Positions 1 to 47,444 of a stretch of 64,000 nt of DNA are shown here, piece after piece; within the stretch, counting starts at the first letter, position 1; every line of letters starts with the position of its first letter. The notes beneath the pieces are model-generated. The model saw only the letters and a list, made by a program, of their open reading frames with translations, made no database searches and was not told the DNA's origin. The position numbers were made by a program, and so were the translations under genes. Source of the DNA: Alphaproteobacteria bacterium (lineage in GTDB: Bacteria; Pseudomonadota; Alphaproteobacteria; Micropepsales; Micropepsaceae); assembly GCA_017308475.1 (NCBI GenBank), contig JAFKEU010000005.1, positions 124,001 through 188,000 of the forward strand. The letters are read 5' to 3'.

Positions 1-363
1 CAGATCCAGCCGCAACAGGGAATAGAAGAGCCTGTGCTTGGCGATCTCGAACTTGGCCCACAGGGCAAGGTTGCCCGCCACCGCCAGGTCCGGGATGACG
101 CGGTTGTGACGGCAGGCGGCGCAATAGCCGGTCTCGTCATCTGCGGGCACCATCCAGTTGCATACCCCGAACTGGTAATTCCGGCAGAAATTGTAGGCCC
201 TGCCGGGGGCCGCCAGCACCCGCCAGCCGCCGCCATCCAACGGGTCTAGTGCGGAAATCTCCGTCAGGTCAGGTAGATAGCCCAAGGCCCGGCCGCAGTT
301 TTCGCAGCGTATATTCTCGAAATAGAGGAGCTGTCCGCACCCCTGACAGCTGAACAATTTCAT
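1..363 (-). CDS. Zinc-ribbon putative metallopeptidase, N-terminal part (runs off window)
   Basis: Partial gene: the first 121 residues are present and the rest lies before the window. The N-terminus has two CxxC pairs (C6/C9 and C20/C23) forming a zinc ribbon, then a second cysteine-rich stretch (FCRNYQ, GVCNW, YCAACR). This layout matches the zinc-ribbon that heads the putative zinc-binding metallopeptidase family; the catalytic HExxH part would be further downstream and cannot be seen. The ATG at 361-363 follows a purine-rich GAGAGGAGCGGGCG. It is divergent from the transglutaminase/ATP-grasp operon starting at 525, and this family is known to co-occur with that operon. Family assignment is moderately sure; the function is inferred. 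Confidence 0.7.
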   Translation of the reverse strand, partial: MKLFSCQGCGQLLYFENIRCENCGRALGYLPDLTEISALDPLDGGGWRVLAAPGRAYNFCRNYQFGVCNWMVPADDETGYCAACRHNRVIPDLAVAGNLALWAKFEIAKHRLFYSLLRLDL

Positions 364-524
364 CGCCCGCTCCTCTCGAAGGGGAACGCCCGCTTTGAGG
401 GCCCGTTCCGCCTGCGTTGCATGGTCGCGCCGAGGGTCTAGGGTGCAATACGTCAGTGTGTGGAACCTATTTCGCACTTGCGGCATACTTTCAGACAATA
501 CGGGCAAGAAACACGGGTTCCCCG

Positions 525-3500
525 ATGTCGATCCAGGCCGCGCTGCGTCATGTCACCCGTTACCGCTATGACCGGCGCATCGCGTTGGGGCCGCAGACGA
601 TACGCCTCAGGCCCGCGCCGCACGCCCGCGCCCATATCGCGTCCTATGCATTGAAGATCGAGCCGGAGCCGCACTTCATCAACTGGCTGCAGGATCCCCA
701 GTCCAACTGGCTGGCGCGCGTCGTCTTTCCCGAAAAGACCGATCATTTCACCGTCTGCGTCGACCTGGCGGTGGAGATGAAGGTGGTCAATCCTTTCGAC
801 TTCTTCCTGGAGCCGGAAGCCGAGCGTTATCCCTTCGCCTATTCCGACGAACTCAAGGCCGAACTGGAGCCCTATCTGCGGACCCGCGACGGGAAAATGG
901 GTGAAAAATTCGAGGCCTGGCTGGCGGCCGTGCCGCGCGGCGAAAAGCCCACCACGACCTTCCTGTTCGACCTGAATGCAAAGCTGGCGCGCGACATTTC
1001 CTATCTGATCCGCATGGAGCCGGGCATCCAGGCACCCGAAGAGACGCTGGTGAAGGGCTCGGGCTCATGCCGCGATTCCGCCTGGCTGATGGTCAATCTG
1101 CTGCGCCGGCTGGGCCTGGCGGCGCGCTTTGCCAGCGGCTACCTGATCCAGCTAAAGCCCGACGTGAAGTCGCTGGATGGACCGTCCGGTCCCGAACAGG
1201 ATTTCACCGACCTGCATGCCTGGTGTGAGGTCTATCTTCCCGGCGCGGGCTGGGTGGGGCTCGACCCCACTTCCGGCCTGTTCGCGGGCGAAGGCCATAT
1301 TCCGCTGGCCTGCACCGCCAATCCCGCCCATGCCGCGCCCATCTCTGGCGCGCTGGAACCGGCCGAGGTCCTGTTCGACTTCGACATGAGTGTGGCGCGG
1401 GTGAAGGAAGCGCCGCGCGTCACCAGGCCCTATAGCGAAGAACAATGGGCGGCTATCGAAAAGCTGGGCGATGACGTCGACAGGATGCTGAACGATCACG
1501 ACGTGCGCCTGACCATGGGGGGCGAGCCGACCTTCGTCTCGATCGACGACCGCAGCGGCGAGGAGTGGCACACCGCCGCCGTCGGCCCCACCAAGCGCAA
1601 GCTGGCCGACACGCTGATCCGCCGCCTGCGCGAACGCTTCGCGCCGGGCGGGCTGCTGCATTACGGCCAGGGCAAATGGTATCCGGGTGAAAGCCTGCCG
1701 CGCTGGGCGTTCGGGCTTTACTGGCGGGCTGACGGCGTGCCCATGTGGAAGAAGGCGGAGAATATCGCCGCCGAGGCCCGCGACCATGCCCCGACGCTGG
1801 ACGACGCGAAGGCGCTGGCCGAAGCAATCGCCACGCGGCTGGGACTGGATGCGTCCTATGCCATCCCCGCCTTCGAGGATTTCTGGCATTACCTGGCGCA
1901 GGAACAACAGCTTGCCGCGGGCATCGATACAACCGATCCCAAGCTGGACGATCCCGAACTGCGCGCGCGGCTGGTGCGGGTGTTCGGGCGCGGCCTGACA
2001 AAGCCCGCGGGCTTCGTGCTGCCGGTGGAAAAAGGCCTTCACCACTGGCAGAGCGAGCATTGGAAGACACGTTCGGGCCAGTTGTTCCTGATCCCCGGCG
2101 ATTCGGCGATCGGATTCCGCCTGCCGCTGAATGCCCTTCCCTTTGTGCCGCCTGAGGCGCGCAGCTTTGTCCCACCGCCCGATCCGTTCGCGCCGCTGCC
2201 GCCGCTGCCTGCGCGCGAGGAAGCGGGCCCGCCCTATGGCGACGCCAGGCCCAATGGCGGTGGCGATTCCGCGCCCTTCCATGCCGTCAATGCCGCCGTC
2301 ACGACGATGGACGGGCCCGAGCCTGCGGTGCGCACCGCCCTGACGGTCGAGCCGCGCGAGGGACGGCTGTGCGTGTTCGTGCCGCCAGTCCCCACCGCCA
2401 ACGATTATTTCGCCCTGCTGTCGGTGGTGGAGGACGGCGCCGAGGCGCTGGGGGTGCCCGTGCATGTCGAAGGCTACCCGCCGCCCTTCGATCCGCGCAT
2501 CCATGTGATCAAGGTCACGCCCGATCCCGGCGTGATCGAGGTGAACATCCATCCGGCCGGGAACTGGCGCGAGCAGATCGACGTCACCCGCGGCCTGTAC
2601 GAGGAAGCGCACGCCGCGCGCCTGTCGACGGAGAAATTCCTGCTGGATGGGCGCCACACCGGCACCGGCGGCGGCAATCATATCGTGGTGGGCGCGGCCG
2701 CGCCTACCGACAGCCCCTTTCTGCGCCGGCCCGACCTGCTCAAGAGCCTGATCGCCTATTGGCAGAACCATCCGTCGCTGTCCTATCTGTTCTCGGGCCT
2801 GTTCATCGGTCCCACAAGCCAAGCGCCGCGGATCGACGAGGCGCGCCATGACGCGCTGTATGAACTGGAAATCGCCTTCGACGAAGTGCCCGGCCGTGCG
2901 GCCGCGAACATCCCGCCCTGGGCGGTGGACCGCATCTTCCGCAACCTGCTGGCCGACCTATCGGGCAACACACACCGCACCGAGATCTGCATCGACAAGC
3001 TCTATTCGCCCGACGGACCCACCGGGCGGCTCGGGCTGGTGGAATTCCGGGGCTTCGAGATGCCGCCTCATGCCGAGATGAGCCTGGCGCAGTCGCTACT
3101 GCTGCGCGGGCTGATCGCACGCTTCTGGCGCGAGCCCTATGGCCGGAAGCTGGTGCGCTGGGGCACCGGGCTGCATGACCGCTTCATGCTGCCCTATTTC
3201 GTGTGGCGCGATTTCGAGGATGTGATCGCCGACATGAACGCCCATGGCCAGGCGTTTGACGCGAACTGGTTCCGCCCGCACTGGGAATTCCGCTTCCCCC
3301 ATATCGGGCGCGTGCAATATGCGGATGTGGAGCTGGAGCTGCGCACCGCGCTGGAACCGTGGAACGTGATGGCCGAGGAAGGCGCCGGCGGGGGCACGGC
3401 GCGATTCGTCGATTCCTCGGTGGAACGGCTGGAAGTGTCGGCCAGCGGCCTGACGCCCGGCCGACACAAGGTACTGGTCAACCGGCGGGCCCTGCCGCTT

Positions 3501-3833
3501 GCATCCACCGGCCAGGGATCGGCGGTGGCGGGCCTGCGCTTCAAGGCCTGGCAGCCCGCGCACGGCCTTCATCCCACCATTCCCGCGCATGGGCCGCTGG
3601 TGATCGAGGTCTGGGATGGCTGGCAGCGCCGGTCGCTGGGCGGCTGCACTTATCACGTCACCCATTCGGGCGGGCGCAATTTCGAGATATTCCCCGTCAA
3701 TGCCAATGAAGCGGAAGGCCGGCGCCTGGCCCGTTTCGAGCCCTTCGGCTTCACCGGCGGTATTTTCGAGGTTGAGAGGGAAGACACAAATCCCGATTTT
3801 CCCTATACGCTGGACCTGCGCCGGGGACCTTGA
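525..3833 (+). CDS. Transglutaminase-like protein with C-terminal DUF2126 domain
   Basis: A 1102-residue cytoplasmic protein with no signal peptide. Residues 1-90 form the usual N-terminal beta domain of bacterial transglutaminase-like proteins (RHVTRYRYDR). A papain-fold domain follows, with an intact triad: C182 (in GSCRDS), H231 (in LHAWCE) and D247 (in LDPTSG). From about residue 300 to the end is the large DUF2126 region typical of these fusions. A reading frame extends up to 417, but the ATG at 525 begins the conserved family N-terminus (MSIQAALRH). Its stop overlaps the next gene, so translation is probably coupled. Bacterial members may act as proteases, amidases or cross-linkers; the substrate is unknown. 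The genome neighbourhood suggests a peptide ligation or processing system. Confidence 0.88.
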   Translation: MSIQAALRHVTRYRYDRRIALGPQTIRLRPAPHARAHIASYALKIEPEPHFINWLQDPQSNWLARVVFPEKTDHFTVCVDLAVEMKVVNPFDFFLEPEAERYPFAYSDELKAELEPYLRTRDGKMGEKFEAWLAAVPRGEKPTTTFLFDLNAKLARDISYLIRMEPGIQAPEETLVKGSGSCRDSAWLMVNLLRRLGLAARFASGYLIQLKPDVKSLDGPSGPEQDFTDLHAWCEVYLPGAGWVGLDPTSGLFAGEGHIPLACTANPAHAAPISGALEPAEVLFDFDMSVARVKEAPRVTRPYSEEQWAAIEKLGDDVDRMLNDHDVRLTMGGEPTFVSIDDRSGEEWHTAAVGPTKRKLADTLIRRLRERFAPGGLLHYGQGKWYPGESLPRWAFGLYWRADGVPMWKKAENIAAEARDHAPTLDDAKALAEAIATRLGLDASYAIPAFEDFWHYLAQEQQLAAGIDTTDPKLDDPELRARLVRVFGRGLTKPAGFVLPVEKGLHHWQSEHWKTRSGQLFLIPGDSAIGFRLPLNALPFVPPEARSFVPPPDPFAPLPPLPAREEAGPPYGDARPNGGGDSAPFHAVNAAVTTMDGPEPAVRTALTVEPREGRLCVFVPPVPTANDYFALLSVVEDGAEALGVPVHVEGYPPPFDPRIHVIKVTPDPGVIEVNIHPAGNWREQIDVTRGLYEEAHAARLSTEKFLLDGRHTGTGGGNHIVVGAAAPTDSPFLRRPDLLKSLIAYWQNHPSLSYLFSGLFIGPTSQAPRIDEARHDALYELEIAFDEVPGRAAANIPPWAVDRIFRNLLADLSGNTHRTEICIDKLYSPDGPTGRLGLVEFRGFEMPPHAEMSLAQSLLLRGLIARFWREPYGRKLVRWGTGLHDRFMLPYFVWRDFEDVIADMNAHGQAFDANWFRPHWEFRFPHIGRVQYADVELELRTALEPWNVMAEEGAGGGTARFVDSSVERLEVSASGLTPGRHKVLVNRRALPLASTGQGSAVAGLRFKAWQPAHGLHPTIPAHGPLVIEVWDGWQRRSLGGCTYHVTHSGGRNFEIFPVNANEAEGRRLARFEPFGFTGGIFEVEREDTNPDFPYTLDLRRGP

Positions 3834-3868
3834 GAATTGGCGCGCAAGGCAGATCAGGAACAGAACCA

Positions 3869-6376
3869 GTGTCGCGTGCGGAACTAGCAGAGCCGTCCAG
3901 TCGCCCGGCGCGCTTTGACGAGTTGCGCGAACCCAATGGGCTGGTGCGTCCGCACTGGCGGGCCTTTGCCCGCACCCTGACCCAGCTGTCGCCCGGGGAA
4001 TATGAGCGCCGCCAGCTGGCGGCCCGCGCAACCGTCCAGGACAACGGCGTCACATATAACGTCTATGACGATCGCGGCGGCCAGGCGCGCCCCTGGCAGC
4101 TGGACATTGTGCCTTTCATCCTGTCGGCGGCCGACTGGAAGCATGTCGAGACGGCGGTGATCCAGCGCGCCATGCTGACCGATCTTCTGTTGCGCGACAT
4201 CTATGGTCCGCAGACCCTGCTGTCGAACAATGTGCTGCCGGCGCACCTTGTCACCGGCCATCCCCAATTCCTGCGCCCGCTGTGCGGCGCCGAGCCGGCC
4301 CATGGCGTGCATGTGCATCTTTACTGCGCCGATCTGGCGCGCGGGCCCGACGGCAGCTGGAGGGTGATGGCAAGCCGCGTCGACGCACCGGGCGGGTTGG
4401 GTTATGCGCTGGAAAACCGGCTTGTCGTGGCGCAGACCTTCCCGGAGAATTTCGCCGACATGCGGGTGGCGCGGCTGGCCGCCTTTTTCAATGCCTATCG
4501 CGAGAACATCCTGGCGCTGGGCCAGTCGCGCCGCGACCGCGCCGTGCTGCTGACGCCCGGTCCTTACAACGAATCCTATTTCGAGCATGTCTATCTGGCA
4601 CATTATCTTGGCCTGACCCTGGTGCAAGGCGACGATCTGGCGGTACGCGGCGGGGAAGTGTTCCTGAAAACGCTGACGGGGCTGGAACGCGTCTCGGCCA
4701 TCTTCCGGCGCGTGGACAGCGATTTCTGCGACCCGCTGGAATTTCGCAGCGACAGCGCGCTGGGCGTGCCGGGGCTGATGGAGGCGGTGCGCGCGGGCGG
4801 CGTGGTGCTGGCCAATGCGCTGGGCGGCGGGGTGGTGGAATCGCCCGCGATGGACGCCTGGCTGCCGGCGGTATGCCGCGCGCTGCTGGGCGAGGAACTG
4901 AAAATCCCCGACATCGCCACCATCTGGTGCGGCACCGAATGGGGCAGGAAGGAAGCGCTGGCGCGGATGAAGCATTCCATCCTGCGCGATGCCTTCGATG
5001 CCCGGCCGATGTTCTCGCGCCGCTCCAGCGCGCGGCTTGGGGCCGACCTGACGGCAGAGGAGCGCGCCCACTTCGAGACGCGCCTGAAGCATCGCGGCGA
5101 GACGCTGGTGGTGCAGGAGATTTCGCCATTGGGGCTCGCGCCGGTGTTCGAGGACGGCCATTTCGCCGCAAAGCCCGTATCCTTGCGTGTCTTCGCCGCC
5201 TGGACACCTTCGGGCTGGACGGTGATGCCGGGCGGGCTGACACGCGTGGCCGCCGACGACAGCGTGCGGGCGCTTTCCATGCAGTCGGGCGCGTCGTCGA
5301 AGGACGCCTGGGTCCTTTCGGCCACGCCGGTCGACAATTTCAGCCTGCTCGGCAACGGCGGCAAGTCGCTGGACGTCCGGCGCCAGGGCGAATCGGCGCC
5401 CAGCCGTGCCATGGACAATCTGTTCTGGCTGGGCCGCTATGCCGAACGCACGGAGAATTTCGTTCGCATCCTGCGCGCGGTTGCCGCGCGCGTCGGAGAC
5501 GAGCCGGCGGCGGCACTGGAAGTGGCGCGCAAACTGCTCGTGCCCTATTCCATGACCAGCGACACACCCATCGAAGCGATTGCCGACGAAGACGATCTGA
5601 CGCGCGAACTGCAGATTCTGGTCTACAGCACCCGCCATGGCCGCAGCCTGCAGAATCTTCTGGCGCGGGTGGAACAGGCGGCCTGGGCGGTGCGCGACCG
5701 CATCTCGCTGGACACCTGGCGCACCATTCACGCCCTGGCCAAGATCGAGGCGCGGCCGGACGAAGAAGACGAATTCGAACCGGCGCAGGCGCGATTCTAC
5801 CTGGATTCGCTGGTGCGGCGCACCGCGGCCCTGTCGGGGCTGGCGGCGGAGAACATGACGCGCGGCCCCAACTGGCTGTTCCTGGAAATGGGCCGGCGCT
5901 GCGAGCGGGCCCAGCACCTTGCCTGGCTGGTGCGCCAAACCGTGGGATACCCGGACGCGCGGGAGACCGATCACATGCGCATCGTGCTTGAGATCGCCGA
6001 CAGCGCCATGACCTATCGCTCGCGCTATCTCAACGTCTTCCAGCTGGTGCCTTTCGTGGACCTGCTGCTTCTGGACGAGAACAATCCGCGCTCCTGCGCC
6101 TATCAGCTGACCGCCATCGGAGCGCACCTGCGGGAGCTGCCGCGCATCACGCCGGCCCAGCGCAGCGACGTGCCGCGCACTCTGGTGCAGGAGATGCGCA
6201 CCGCGCTGGCGGGCGCCAGCCCCGCACGACTGGACTTCTGCGAGCATGGTGCCCGGCCGGGCATGCTGGAACTGACCGGCACGATTTCATCGGGTTGCGC
6301 GCTTTTGTCTGATGGTATCGCTGATGCCTATTTCCAGCATTCCAGCCGCAGCCGCACCGGCGCAGCGGGCCCGTGA
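3869..6376 (+). CDS. Circularly permuted ATP-grasp protein with alpha-E domain
   Basis: About 835 residues. The N-terminal 500 residues are a circularly permuted ATP-grasp type 2 domain, recognisable from the VTYNVYDD start region, the LPAHLVTGHPQFLRP segment and the ALGGGVVESPAMDAWLP block. The C-terminal third, from about MDNLFWLGRYAERTENF onward, is the all-helical alpha-E domain. ATP-grasp enzymes form amide bonds through acyl-phosphates, so this is probably a peptide or amino-acid ligase; no substrate is known. Two starts are possible. A TTG at 3830 overlaps the upstream stop by four bases. The GTG at 3869 has AGGAA eight bases before it and is preferred here. It sits between two transglutaminase genes, overlapping or abutting both. 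Confidence 0.87.
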   Translation: MSRAELAEPSSRPARFDELREPNGLVRPHWRAFARTLTQLSPGEYERRQLAARATVQDNGVTYNVYDDRGGQARPWQLDIVPFILSAADWKHVETAVIQRAMLTDLLLRDIYGPQTLLSNNVLPAHLVTGHPQFLRPLCGAEPAHGVHVHLYCADLARGPDGSWRVMASRVDAPGGLGYALENRLVVAQTFPENFADMRVARLAAFFNAYRENILALGQSRRDRAVLLTPGPYNESYFEHVYLAHYLGLTLVQGDDLAVRGGEVFLKTLTGLERVSAIFRRVDSDFCDPLEFRSDSALGVPGLMEAVRAGGVVLANALGGGVVESPAMDAWLPAVCRALLGEELKIPDIATIWCGTEWGRKEALARMKHSILRDAFDARPMFSRRSSARLGADLTAEERAHFETRLKHRGETLVVQEISPLGLAPVFEDGHFAAKPVSLRVFAAWTPSGWTVMPGGLTRVAADDSVRALSMQSGASSKDAWVLSATPVDNFSLLGNGGKSLDVRRQGESAPSRAMDNLFWLGRYAERTENFVRILRAVAARVGDEPAAALEVARKLLVPYSMTSDTPIEAIADEDDLTRELQILVYSTRHGRSLQNLLARVEQAAWAVRDRISLDTWRTIHALAKIEARPDEEDEFEPAQARFYLDSLVRRTAALSGLAAENMTRGPNWLFLEMGRRCERAQHLAWLVRQTVGYPDARETDHMRIVLEIADSAMTYRSRYLNVFQLVPFVDLLLLDENNPRSCAYQLTAIGAHLRELPRITPAQRSDVPRTLVQEMRTALAGASPARLDFCEHGARPGMLELTGTISSGCALLSDGIADAYFQHSSRSRTGAAGP

Positions 6377-6384
6377 GGGATGTG

Positions 6385-7257
6385 ATGGACTATCTGGTGA
6401 CGCATCGCACCACCTATCGCTATGTGCAGGACGTCTCCCATTCCTGGCATCTGGCGCATCTGCGCCTGCGCGACACGGCGAACCAGAAAGTCGCATCCAG
6501 CGAGATCGCCATCAGCCTGGAGCCGGACAGCATCGCCTCACGCACCGACTATTTCGGCAATCCGGTGGAATGGTTCGCCTTCGACCGGCCGCACACGCTG
6601 CTGGAGATTCTGGCGGAAAGCCGAGTGACGGTGGAACGGCCGCCCGAAAGGCCCAGCCGCGAAAGCCTGACGCATGAGAGGGTGCGCGCGCTACTGGAAA
6701 ATCCGCCCGACGCGGAGGCGCGCGACGCCGTGCAGTACATCTTTGATTCCCCCATGACCGCCTTCAAGAGCGACATCGCCGAATATGCCGGCGAAAGCTT
6801 TCCGCCAGGCCGGCCCATGCTGGCGGGAGCTGAAGAGCTGATGAACCGCATTCATTGCGACTTCCGCTATGACACCAGCGTGACCGACGCGACCACGCCC
6901 GTCGACCGGGTGTTCGAGATCCGCGCCGGGGTCTGCCAGGACCTGGCGCACGTCGCGATCGCGGCGATGCGCAGCCTGGGCCTGCCGGCGCGCTATGTGT
7001 CGGGCTATCTTCTCACCCGGCCGCCACCGGGGATGCCCCGGCTGGTGGGGGCCGATGCCAGTCATGCCTGGTTCAGCGTCTGGGCGCCGCCTTTCGGCTG
7101 GGTGGACCTGGACCCCACCAACGATGTGATCGTGGGCGAGACCCATGTCACCTCATCCTGGGGTCGCGACTATGGCGATGTGGCGCCCGTTGCCGGCATC
7201 ATCCTGGGCGGCCACGACCATATGGTGGATGTTGGAGTGGATGTCATCCCCGCCTGA
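6385..7257 (+). CDS. Transglutaminase family protein
   Basis: About 290 residues, third gene of the coupled trio. It has the bacterial transglutaminase N-terminal beta region (YLVTHRTTYRY) and a papain-like core with triad C184 (GVCQDLAH), H227 (SHAWFSV) and D243 (LDPTND), all intact. The ATG at 6385 has GAGGG just upstream. A GTG at 6373 would overlap the ATP-grasp stop (GTGA) and is a plausible alternative start. There is no signal peptide, so it acts in the cytoplasm. Together with the first gene this gives two different transglutaminase-fold enzymes around one ligase. That arrangement suggests that one makes and another trims or transfers a peptide, which is inference. Confidence 0.88.
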   Translation: MDYLVTHRTTYRYVQDVSHSWHLAHLRLRDTANQKVASSEIAISLEPDSIASRTDYFGNPVEWFAFDRPHTLLEILAESRVTVERPPERPSRESLTHERVRALLENPPDAEARDAVQYIFDSPMTAFKSDIAEYAGESFPPGRPMLAGAEELMNRIHCDFRYDTSVTDATTPVDRVFEIRAGVCQDLAHVAIAAMRSLGLPARYVSGYLLTRPPPGMPRLVGADASHAWFSVWAPPFGWVDLDPTNDVIVGETHVTSSWGRDYGDVAPVAGIILGGHDHMVDVGVDVIPA

Positions 7258-8478
7258 CTATTTTGCGCAATCAAGGCCCATCGCATCCTGCAGCCGCTGG
7301 TAGATCGAGACCATTTCGATCGTGCCCAGATTGCCGGGCGTGACGCCCGGACCCGACAGCAGGAAGATGCTGTGATAGTCGGGCCGGGTCGGCCAGAAGC
7401 CGTGCGTGCCCCGGCTACCGGGCTTGCCATGCGCAGAGCCGGTGGCGGCGTTGCCGAAGACGACATGCGGCGCGGGCTCGAAAGCGGTGGTGGCCGTGGA
7501 AAGCTGCGGGGCATAGTGCACCAGTTCGTCATGCGACACTTCCCGGCCGACATCGCCCTTGCCGCTTTGCGATTTCAGCCAGGCCGCGACGTTGGGATCA
7601 TTGGTGGTGGCAAGCCCGCCCGCAATGGCCATCTCACCAGTGATGCCATCGGCCGCCGCCATCACTTTCAGGTTGGCCGAATGGTCGATGGCTTCGAAGC
7701 CATGGTCGGACACCAGCGCCAGGTCGTAATCGGCAGGCATGGCCTTCAATATGTCGCCAAGAAGTTCGTCGGTGCGCTCGACGACGGCTTTGGCATTGAC
7801 GGTGGAGGGTCCCTGTTCGTGGGATTCCGAATCCAGCTCGGCCAGATGCGTCGCCACCAGGTCGGGTAGTTTGGTCTTCAGCAACCAGATGGTCGCCAGG
7901 GTGCGGCTGCGATCGTCCAGCCATTGCTGGCGGAAGGAAGGATAGGTCCTGTTGATGTCGGCGGCGAGGCCTTGCGGAATCTCCCACTTTTCAACCGTCT
8001 CCATGTCGGAGGAATCGCCGTTGCGTTTGGCATAGACCTCCGGCAGGTCGTAAGCGAGGGGCGCCTTCACCGTCACCGGCCAGTTGATCGCCCCGGCGGT
8101 CTTGCCCGCCGCCTTCAGGCACTGCCAGATGGCGGGCACCTTCACCTTCTCGAAGGACCAGTAGGACAGCGCCGGATCTGGCGCGCCCGCCGCATTGCCG
8201 AGGATGCCGTGGCTATAGGGCGTGACGCCGGTGATCATGGTGGTGTGCGAGGGCCAGGTGATGGTGGGCCACACCCCCACCACGCCATCGGCATATTGGG
8301 AACGCGCCAGGACCTTGCGGATGTTGGGGATCTTCAGGCCCAGCGCATCGCGGTCACGGATATAGCGCCAGTCCAGCCCATCGATGGACAGCAGCACCAG
8401 CTTGTGGGCGGCAAAGGCTGGCGTGACGCCGGTCGATGCCAGCAGTGCCAGTGCGATGGCCTTGAGGATTCGATGCAT
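7258..8478 (-). CDS. Exported alkaline phosphatase superfamily protein (type I phosphodiesterase)
   Basis: 406 residues with a Sec signal peptide (MHRILKAIALALLAS, cleavage near AFAA-HK). The mature part is a nucleotide pyrophosphatase/phosphodiesterase-type hydrolase. A metal-binding LSIDGLDW is near the N-terminus. The nucleophile threonine lies in the WPTITWPSHTTM block, and a second metal-site SDHGF is near the middle. Members hydrolyse phosphodiester or phosphate ester bonds in the periplasm using two metal ions; the substrate cannot be read from sequence. Its stop codon directly abuts the stop of the convergent transglutaminase gene. It is probably transcribed alone. Confidence 0.85.
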   Translation of the reverse strand: MHRILKAIALALLASTGVTPAFAAHKLVLLSIDGLDWRYIRDRDALGLKIPNIRKVLARSQYADGVVGVWPTITWPSHTTMITGVTPYSHGILGNAAGAPDPALSYWSFEKVKVPAIWQCLKAAGKTAGAINWPVTVKAPLAYDLPEVYAKRNGDSSDMETVEKWEIPQGLAADINRTYPSFRQQWLDDRSRTLATIWLLKTKLPDLVATHLAELDSESHEQGPSTVNAKAVVERTDELLGDILKAMPADYDLALVSDHGFEAIDHSANLKVMAAADGITGEMAIAGGLATTNDPNVAAWLKSQSGKGDVGREVSHDELVHYAPQLSTATTAFEPAPHVVFGNAATGSAHGKPGSRGTHGFWPTRPDYHSIFLLSGPGVTPGNLGTIEMVSIYQRLQDAMGLDCAK

Positions 8479-8606: not shown

Positions 8607-9326
8607 ATGACATCCCTTCTGGTCCTGGGCCTGGCGCTGTGTGCCGCGTGCGCGACCATGACCGGCGGCCTGATGGCCCTCAAACTCGCCGAGCGACTTC
8701 CGCTGGTGCTGGGCTTTTCGGCCGGCGCCGTGATCGGGGTGGCCTTTTTTGACCTGGCGCCAGAAGCCATCGCGGCGGGAAGGGGATTCTATGATGCGCG
8801 GACCCTTCTGGCCATCGCGGCGGGCGGCTTCTTTCTCTATGTGGTGATCGACCGGCTGGTGGCGCGCCATGACTGCGAGGGCGGGCCCAACACGACACGC
8901 GGCCTGATCGGCGCGGCCAGCTTTTCCGCTCACAGCATACTGGACGGATTCGCCATGGGTATCGCGCTGCAGGCCGGCCCCGAGATCGGACTGATCGTGG
9001 CGGCGGCAGTACTGGCACATGACTTCGCGGATGGCTTGAATACCGTCAATGTGGTGGTGAAAAATGGCGGAGAGCGCAGGCACGCGCTGTCCTGGCTGGC
9101 GATGGATGCCTTTGCCCCGCTGCTGGGCGCGGGTCTGAGTCTTCTGGTCACGCCGCGCCCCGAACTTCTGGCACTGCTGCTGGCGTTGTTCTGCGGCTTC
9201 TTCCTGCATATCGGGGCGAGCGGGCTTCTGCCGGAAAGCCACCGGACGCGCCCGCGCCTGTCCACGACCCTGGCCACGCTTGCGGGCGCGGGCTTTCTTT
9301 ATCTGGTCACCTGGGCAGTGCGCTGA
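8607..9326 (+). CDS. ZIP family metal transporter
   Basis: 239 residues, almost entirely hydrophobic with about eight membrane segments. The signature HSILDG (within FSAHSILDGFAMG) is the transmembrane IV metal-binding motif of the ZIP zinc/iron permeases. A second polar block, AHDFADGLNTV, sits in segment V where ZIP proteins carry HE or HD ligands. It probably moves Zn(II), Fe(II) or another divalent cation into the cytoplasm. The length is slightly short for ZupT and closer to GufA-like bacterial ZIPs. It is divergent from the phosphodiesterase gene, with a 128-base shared upstream region; no Zur box was recognised. Confidence 0.82.
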   Translation: MTSLLVLGLALCAACATMTGGLMALKLAERLPLVLGFSAGAVIGVAFFDLAPEAIAAGRGFYDARTLLAIAAGGFFLYVVIDRLVARHDCEGGPNTTRGLIGAASFSAHSILDGFAMGIALQAGPEIGLIVAAAVLAHDFADGLNTVNVVVKNGGERRHALSWLAMDAFAPLLGAGLSLLVTPRPELLALLLALFCGFFLHIGASGLLPESHRTRPRLSTTLATLAGAGFLYLVTWAVR

Positions 9327-46958: not shown

Positions 46959-47444
46959 ATGGAATGGACCGATGCGAAGCGCGCCCGTTATCGCCCGCTG
47001 GGCATGTTCCTGCTGGCGACGCTGGGCGTGGGCGCCGCCGCCAGCCTGTTCACCGAGCCAAACGTCGCCACCTGGTACGCCGGGCTGGTCAAGCCATCCT
47101 TCAATCCGCCCAACTGGGTGTTCGCCCCGGTCTGGACCACGCTTTATGTGCTGATGGCAGTGGCGGCCTGGCGGGTATGGCACAAGACCGGCCTGAGGGA
47201 TCCGGCACTGTATGCATTCGGGGCGCAGCTGCTTCTGAACTTCTGCTGGAGCGGCATTTTCTTCGGCCTGCACCAGCCCGGCTTCGCACTTGCGGAATTG
47301 CTGCTGCTGAACCTGGCAATCCTGGCGACCCTGGTTCTGTTCTGGCGCCGCGACCCCATCGCAGGCATGATGCTGGTGCCTTATTTGGGCTGGACCTGTT
47401 TCGCCGGCCTGCTCAATTACGAGATCTGGCGTCTGAATACCTGA
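46959..47444 (+). CDS. tspO: TspO/MBR family tryptophan-rich sensory protein
   Basis: 161 residues with five membrane helices. The family pattern is clear: WYAGLVKPSFNPPNWVFAPVWTTLYVLMAVAAWRVW, LLLNFCWSGIFFGLHQP and a tryptophan-rich end (LVPYLGWTCFAGLLNYEIWRLN). It binds tetrapyrroles and related hydrophobic ligands in the membrane, and in alphaproteobacteria modulates porphyrin export and oxygen-dependent gene control. The frame is open from 46776, but the ATG at 46959 with AGAGGA upstream is the family start. Confidence 0.9.
   Translation: MEWTDAKRARYRPLGMFLLATLGVGAAASLFTEPNVATWYAGLVKPSFNPPNWVFAPVWTTLYVLMAVAAWRVWHKTGLRDPALYAFGAQLLLNFCWSGIFFGLHQPGFALAELLLLNLAILATLVLFWRRDPIAGMMLVPYLGWTCFAGLLNYEIWRLNT

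Follow-up and report, generated by a model that had tools for sequence, protein, structure and literature searches.

Which protein of a transglutaminase and DUF2126 gene cluster forms an amide bond at the expense of ATP, and on which substrate, is the question raised by the left end of the stretch analysed here (the window, 64,000 nucleotides, C5:124001-188000, part of a 3.45 Mb alphaproteobacterial assembly). A transglutaminase (TG)-DUF2126 protein, a protein in which a circularly permuted (CP) ATP-grasp is fused to Alpha-E (CPAE), and a second TG protein are encoded there in one operon, with a zinc-peptidase gene divergent from it (Table 1); the same order of TG-DUF2126, CP ATP-grasp, Alpha-E, and TG genes is also seen across the compared loci. 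Among named proteins, the nearest are from Rhizomicrobium and unclassified Alphaproteobacteria, and the locus typifies a system that is known but uncharacterised. An amide-ligation or peptide-modification role was put forward by Iyer et al. 2009, as cited in PMC5666114, PMC6376114, and PMC3597751, and a peptide-synthesis or tagging proposal is cited in the excerpts of PMC5666114 and PMC6376114. The earlier note on this DNA followed the first of these proposals, which stands as the best general reading; its identification of the ligating protein is probably wrong, and a precursor nearby is unsupported. It is estimated here, at a probability of about 0.5, that the operon and the divergent zinc-peptidase gene form amide bonds on a cytosolic substrate and open them again, probably in response to nitrogen shortage, with DUF2126 as the likely ligase.

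The ATP-Grasp Site of the Fused Protein

When 72 CPAE rows were compared with 26 unfused CP ATP-grasps, the E-x-N pair, the lysine, and the glycine loop were found to be invariant in the 26 unfused proteins and lost in CPAE. CP proteins shorter than 420 aa and CPAE proteins shorter than 700 aa were dropped before alignment; the window's CPAE and second TG are each counted twice in the alignment counts, and the duplicate row was removed before the tree was built. The E-x-N pair is missing in 72/72 CPAE rows, the glycine loop is replaced without a conserved substitute, and CPAE branches are long in the tree; the replacing residues of the window's protein are given in Table 1. On this alignment, CPAE is probably a pseudo-ligase. 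The earlier note took the ATP-grasp for the ligase and stated that missing ATP-binding residues would refute it; with the pair, the lysine, and the loop all gone, the assignment does not appear to hold for CPAE. The degenerate motif also occurs in P0071, a 1567-aa TG-DUF2126-ATP-grasp protein. P0071 was considered as a natural fusion of the three parts, but its joint reads like a frameshift between overlapping genes, and it was therefore excluded as evidence of fusion.

The Unfused ATP-Grasp and the Distribution of the System

A second, unfused CP ATP-grasp is encoded in the same genome at C5:377362 and scores 557 bits, compared with 435 for CPAE. It opens a second locus, ~246 kb from the window operon, in which the CP ATP-grasp gene is followed by a separate Alpha-E gene and then by a TG gene (L022:7840-11654); the unfused protein (L022:7840-9561) retains the E-D-N, the lysine, and the GGYG motif. 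It has A208 at a position where 25/26 unfused rows have E, beside the invariant N209-R210.

In a sample of 397 genomes drawn from the phylum, which was taken as Pseudomonadota, DUF2126 is found in 129, or about a third. A PF14403 match above the cut-off is present in 129/129 DUF2126 genomes (best E ≤1.2e-157), compared with 103/268 genomes without DUF2126, and at least two matches are present in 123/129 DUF2126 genomes, compared with 12/103 PF14403-positive genomes without it. In the six DUF2126 genomes that have one match only, this match is of the high-scoring, unfused type; in at least one of them (G108), DUF2126 is matched at the end of a contig, and a CPAE could be hidden there. DUF2126 was never seen in this sample without an unfused-type ATP-grasp, the type being assigned for most genomes by score and not by motif, among listed matches of at least about 548 bits. 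This pattern would fit a role of the unfused protein as a required ligase partner and of CPAE as an accessory. For the system as a whole, the ATP-grasp ligase is likely this unfused protein, which has an Alpha-E and a TG of its own beside it.

For the neighbourhood, 60 stretches of ≤20 kb were picked from 60/129 DUF2126 genomes, mostly one per genus (29 alphaproteobacterial and 31 non-alphaproteobacterial), and open reading frames (ORFs) were predicted with our own codon-model caller. CPAE occurs in 51/60 stretches (24/29 alphaproteobacterial and 27/31 others), TG in 21/29 and 28/31, some TG genes having been missed by the caller, zinc peptidase in 4/29 and 4/31, unfused CP in 1/29 and 22/31, and an Anbu-like gene in 0/29 and 7/31, respectively. 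The frequency of DUF2126 and the co-occurrence counts of CPAE indicate a gene association beyond chance. Counting an Acidithiobacillus caldus plasmid, Anbu-like genes lie near DUF2126 in 8/83 compared loci, and their presence there in several non-alphaproteobacterial lineages joins the two known cluster types. Among the genomes searched as relatives of the window's genome, DUF2126 was found in 15/61. In control searches, the Synechococcus elongatus genome matched both DUF2126 and PF14403.

DUF2126 as the Candidate Ligase

Because the operon's ATP-grasp lacks residues retained by its unfused relatives, ligation is tentatively assigned to the DUF2126 half of the TG-DUF2126 protein. Structure comparison of a DUF2126 model with Foldseek points to a glutamine-synthetase fold, with GmaS among the structural matches, and the invariant residues E334, E672, N674, H719, E840, and R842 are candidate metal or ATP ligands only. 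On this predicted fold, DUF2126 is the likeliest ligase of the cluster; no chemistry for it was found in the literature searched. The triad of the TG domain fused to it, C182-H231-D247, is invariant in 86/86 aligned proteins, and that of the second TG, C184-H227-D243, is kept in 66/66, 66/66, and 65/66 rows, respectively (the window's protein being two rows). Both triads are intact at the residues named in the earlier note.

Possible Nitrogen Control

A link of the cluster to nitrogen limitation, missed by the earlier note, emerges from published work, cited here from excerpts of the sources. In Burkholderia cenocepacia H111, I35_5080-5083 are listed at -8.2, -9.4, -9.4, and -6.0 among the genes changed in an ntrC mutant, with the products DUF404/407, DUF403, TG, and 'large protein containing transglutaminase-like domain', and the regulon also holds urea, amino-acid, and polyamine uptake genes (PMC5491218). 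The locus of another B. cenocepacia strain (L050) has the same gene order, and its large TG protein is a TG-DUF2126 protein 57% identical to that of the window; the product name is likewise used for DUF2126 proteins (P0303). In Pseudomonas putida, nitrogen limitation raises PP_2686-2688 by 12.6, 11.0, and 14.7 fold in the first strain column (PMC7801951), and PP_2685 and PP_2688 are up on nitrate compared with ammonium (PMC8050072). A sigma54-regulon survey has the proteasome-type protease COG3484 among its targets in the alpha, beta, and gamma classes (PMC12316311), and in marine metagenomes the cluster domains correlate with urea-metabolism domains (PMC3597751).

Among the non-alphaproteobacterial loci, sigma54-type sites scoring at least 10/12 were found before 18/77 cluster units, compared with 4/129 other units (nominal p 9e-6); p-values are nominal because the loci are related (near-identical pairs L050/L139 and L055/L127) and several units come from one locus. 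The 18 sites are spread over 13/37 loci, two near-identical pairs included; the zinc peptidase (2 of 18 hits) and Anbu are counted among the cluster units, and 1 of the 4 control hits is ntrBC. B. cenocepacia has an NtrC-type site scoring 11/12, and rpoN and ntrC are present in the window's own genome.

Proposed Cycle and Its Alternatives

In the proposed cycle, the most economical mechanism, DUF2126 would use ATP to activate a carboxylate and would couple it to an amine; cleavage or transfer of the amide so formed would fall to the fused cysteine TG domain, to the second TG, and to the zinc peptidase. CPAE would act as a non-catalytic partner, as a substrate dock, scaffold, or regulator, while the separate unfused ATP-grasp/Alpha-E/TG set would work alongside, and the whole may serve the turnover of amides or peptides in nitrogen shortage. 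A cytosolic location is likely, because a simple hydropathy scan found no membrane segment or signal peptide in seven proteins (four here and three of the second locus).

Several observations weigh against this cycle. The DUF2126 model is of moderate confidence (mean predicted local distance difference test score, pLDDT, 77.5), and is weak over 711-715, 758-775, and 810-834, close to conserved residues; Foldseek E-values for the glutamine-synthetase-fold matches are 0.019 or worse, and hhalign of the DUF2126 profile against the genome's own single GlnA sequence gave no signal. DUF2126 is patchy in its own genus (14/37 genomes). In the mainly alphaproteobacterial set, which was assigned by locus number and includes L041 (labelled Eremiobacterota) as well as L033 and L039 (labelled Proteobacteria/Pseudomonadota only), sigma54 sites scoring at least 10/12 lie before 0/68 cluster units and 4/213 others, and NtrC sites are not significantly enriched in the non-alphaproteobacterial units (5/77 vs 2/129 at 11/12, p 0.07). 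The sigma54-like match of the window was rejected as a promoter and judged a chance match, because 38 matches scoring at least 9 occur on both strands of its 64 kb and this one is lost in relatives. Nitrogen control is supported for some Beta- and Gammaproteobacteria; for the window's lineage it is only extrapolated, given the lack of such sites before the cluster units of the mainly alphaproteobacterial set and the unconserved match. In P. putida, PP_2685 (Anbu) is up only 1.1 fold in the same first column (PMC7801951). CPAE also retains E182-N183-R184 and D283, and a C-terminal lysine in 42/72 rows. Furthermore, certain divergent ligases and kinases stay active while lacking textbook motifs.

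CPAE could also be no pseudoenzyme at all but a ligase that stays active through a remodelled ATP site. This appears unlikely, since CPAE has other residues in place of the E-x-N pair, the lysine, and the glycine loop, with no conserved substitute for the loop, its branches are long, and the lone PF14403 match of 6/129 DUF2126 genomes scores as the unfused type, although contig ends may conceal a CPAE in some of them.

A different alternative to the proposed cycle is protein tagging and recycling, an analogue of pupylation under nitrogen starvation, in which a protein or peptide tag would be attached by a glutamine-synthetase-fold ligase and taken off by TG and metal peptidases, and Anbu, where present, would degrade or trim the products. 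The predicted fold of DUF2126, the Anbu-like genes near it (8/83 compared loci; 7/31 picked non-alphaproteobacterial loci), and the published nitrogen control of an Anbu operon (PMC7801951, PMC8050072) are consistent with it, but the cluster has no recurrent tag gene next to it (one could lie elsewhere), and Anbu is absent from the window's own genome by a profile of seven Anbu-like proteins. This profile is matched in 6/41 genomes searched and in 3/25 genomes of the genus; the seven proteins are presumed to be Anbu from an N-terminal pattern, and of two that were tested one matches PF00227, weakly. PF00227 itself was rejected as a detector for being too insensitive and was replaced by the profile because it missed the Anbu of L114 altogether. 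In addition, tests of Anbu detected neither peptidase activity nor a specific interaction with its operon partners, according to the excerpts of PMC6376114, and tagging is considered doubtful. Rather improbable, too, is a nitrogen-starvation protein or peptide conjugation paralleling pupylation outside Actinobacteria, in which a glutamine-synthetase-fold ligase with its own cysteine amidase is steered by CPAE, together with the true ATP-grasp/Alpha-E and sometimes Anbu, so that cell protein would be marked and recycled once nitrogen is exhausted.

PuuA and GmaS, which have a glutamine-synthetase fold, each glutamylate an amine or polyamine. In a nitrogen-scavenging pathway, DUF2126 would glutamylate such a compound, and TG-type cysteine hydrolases would free usable nitrogen; GmaS among the structural matches of the DUF2126 model, the regulon common with urea, amino-acid, and polyamine uptake genes (PMC5491218), and the correlation with urea-metabolism domains in marine metagenomes (PMC3597751) agree with this. 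However, scavenging leaves the ATP-grasp/Alpha-E partners, the zinc peptidase, and Anbu unexplained, and it seems improbable.

That the operon's own ATP-grasp modifies a small ribosomal peptide encoded nearby, as the earlier note had it, is in keeping with the gene combination, the operon coupling, and the release of phosphate from ATP by the Anbu-operon ATP-grasp of Yersinia bercovieri (PMC6376114), but is very unlikely given the absent E-x-N pair, the spacing in the window (161 nt ahead of TG-DUF2126, and none between the end of the second TG gene and that of a convergent gene), and a short-ORF search (20-110 aa, within 2.5 kb, own gene caller) that yielded no convincing recurrent family among 939 candidates in 81 loci, so that a precursor beside the cluster is not supported. 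The largest related group reaches 5 loci, with its L050 member antisense inside a TG gene; three further groups reach 3 loci each, and two of these span the divergent promoter of near relatives, with no separate counterpart in the window.

With the proposed cycle as the working reading, the vague label 'peptide ligase' can be replaced by testable questions: which of the three proteins uses ATP, whether CPAE is a pseudoenzyme, and whether a nitrogen shortage makes the substrate appear. Should the ATP-grasp be dead, the activity would escape assays directed at it, and the DUF2126 half and the unfused ATP-grasp would have to be assayed together.

Gene Content of the Locus

Table 1. Features at the left end of the window (positions in the window).
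Feature	Position	Strand	Basis or remark
Zinc-ribbon + Peptidase_Mx metallopeptidase gene, 5' end	1..363	-	PF15887 364 bits, PF10005 112 bits (Pfam)
Divergent intergenic region, 161 nt	364..524	none	position
Sigma54-like match, 9/12	461..476	+	judged chance match
Box TTCGCACTTGCGGCAT / TTCGCACTTGCGGCATA before TG-DUF2126	471..486 (471-487 for TTCGCACTTGCGGCATA)	+	near-constant in close relatives, flanks vary
TG-DUF2126 protein, 1102 aa	525..3833	+	Bact_transglu_N + Transglut_core + DUF2126 (Pfam)
Fused CP ATP-grasp + Alpha-E (CPAE), 835 aa from GTG 3869	3869..6376	+	Pfam
A168-S169-R170 of CPAE, replacing invariant E-D-N of unfused CP ATP-grasps	4370..4378	+	alignment
R373 and following loop of CPAE, replacing invariant K...GGYG of unfused type	4985..5029	+	alignment
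Alpha-E domain of CPAE, residues 511-822	5399..6334	+	Pfam
Second TG protein, 290 aa	6385..7257	+	Bact_transglu_N + Transglut_core (Pfam)

The gene set described in the earlier note is present, with the expected Pfam domains in all four proteins, and the coupling of the last three genes is borne out, because CPAE and the second TG can start within a few nt of the preceding stop: CPAE has an alternative start at TTG 3830, inside the end of TG-DUF2126 (stop 3833), and the second TG can start at GTG 6373, before the CPAE stop at 6376, or at ATG 6385. The DUF2126 domain covers residues 279-1099 (window 1359-3821; Pfam 1263 bits), and CPAE matches CP_ATPgrasp_2 at 433 bits and Alpha-E at 215 bits in one protein. 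The whole metallopeptidase gene (window -716..363, L003:284-1363) lies mostly to the left of the window and diverges from the operon, and its translation contains HExxH. On the other side, a convergent phosphodiesterase gene (7258-8478, minus strand) ends directly against the stop of the second TG. Close relatives share a TTCGCANTTGCGGCATA box instead of the sigma54-like site, and the box TTCGCACTTGCGGCATA has an inner CGCA-N2-TGCG palindrome. The pattern TTCGCANTTGCGGCAT was rejected as a regulon signal, with 18 own-genome matches (≤2 mismatches) vs 6 for the reversed pattern; a 1-mismatch match in the window at 47283 lies inside a coding ORF.

Farther along, a ZIP-type zinc transporter gene (window 8607-9326) is near the cluster in 8 loci, those of the window and seven relatives, and all 8 also carry the zinc peptidase. 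An ATP-binding cassette (ABC)-permease group recurs in 10/83 loci; on nitrogen scavenging, neighbouring transporters are uninformative either way. A RidA-like gene (by eye) of ~155 aa is near the cluster in L118, L120, L121, and L122. In Halomonas sp. PA16-9 (L055:7001-10349), TG-DUF2126 is split over several frames, and the unfused CP gene likewise.

On an Enterobacter roggenkampii IncFII plasmid (L054:6603-15794), CP ATP-grasp, Alpha-E, TG-DUF2126, CPAE, and TG are found together, flanked on both sides by insertion sequence (IS) transposase genes, and because of this position the whole system may be mobile. A single run of genes on the A. caldus plasmid (L057:1-14435) includes ntrC-glnL, two Anbu-like genes, a TG-DUF2126 gene broken into two pieces, an unfused CP ATP-grasp, and an Alpha-E gene.

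Comparison with Known Systems

In pupylation, PafA and Dop, a ligase and a deamidase of glutamine-synthetase fold, work with the proteasome. The cluster resembles it in the predicted glutamine-synthetase-fold amidoligase, in a proteasome relative in the neighbourhood, and in the link to nitrogen shortage in the literature. Unlike in pupylation, no Pup-like gene was found beside the cluster (the search covering the locus only), the proteasome relative is absent here, and the TG proteases of the cluster have no counterpart in pupylation. The synthetase/amidase pairing of glutathionylspermidine synthetase/amidase is also similar to the proposed cycle; unlike in that enzyme and trypanothione synthetase/amidase, the amidase here would be of TG fold and fused to a predicted glutamine-synthetase fold, and the ATP-grasp is degenerate. 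By Pfam, the window proteins have no CHAP amidase domain, their cysteine domains being Transglut_core.

The second locus has the same order of CP ATP-grasp, Alpha-E, and TG as the Anbu operon (P. putida PP_2685-2688, Y. bercovieri), and Anbu and the unfused ATP-grasp set adjoin DUF2126 in several non-alphaproteobacterial loci. Unlike the Anbu operon, the genome studied here is without Anbu, and the window operon has DUF2126, the fused CPAE, and the zinc peptidase. No report of a probable pseudo-ligase with a constant unfused partner was found in the literature searched, which left out Iyer et al. 2009. The amidoligase system of Iyer et al. 2009, as cited, is like the window operon in its domains, its operon logic, and the proposed peptide synthesis or modification; unlike in that system as cited, the ATP-grasp of the window operon is degenerate, and an unfused ATP-grasp is encoded at a second locus.

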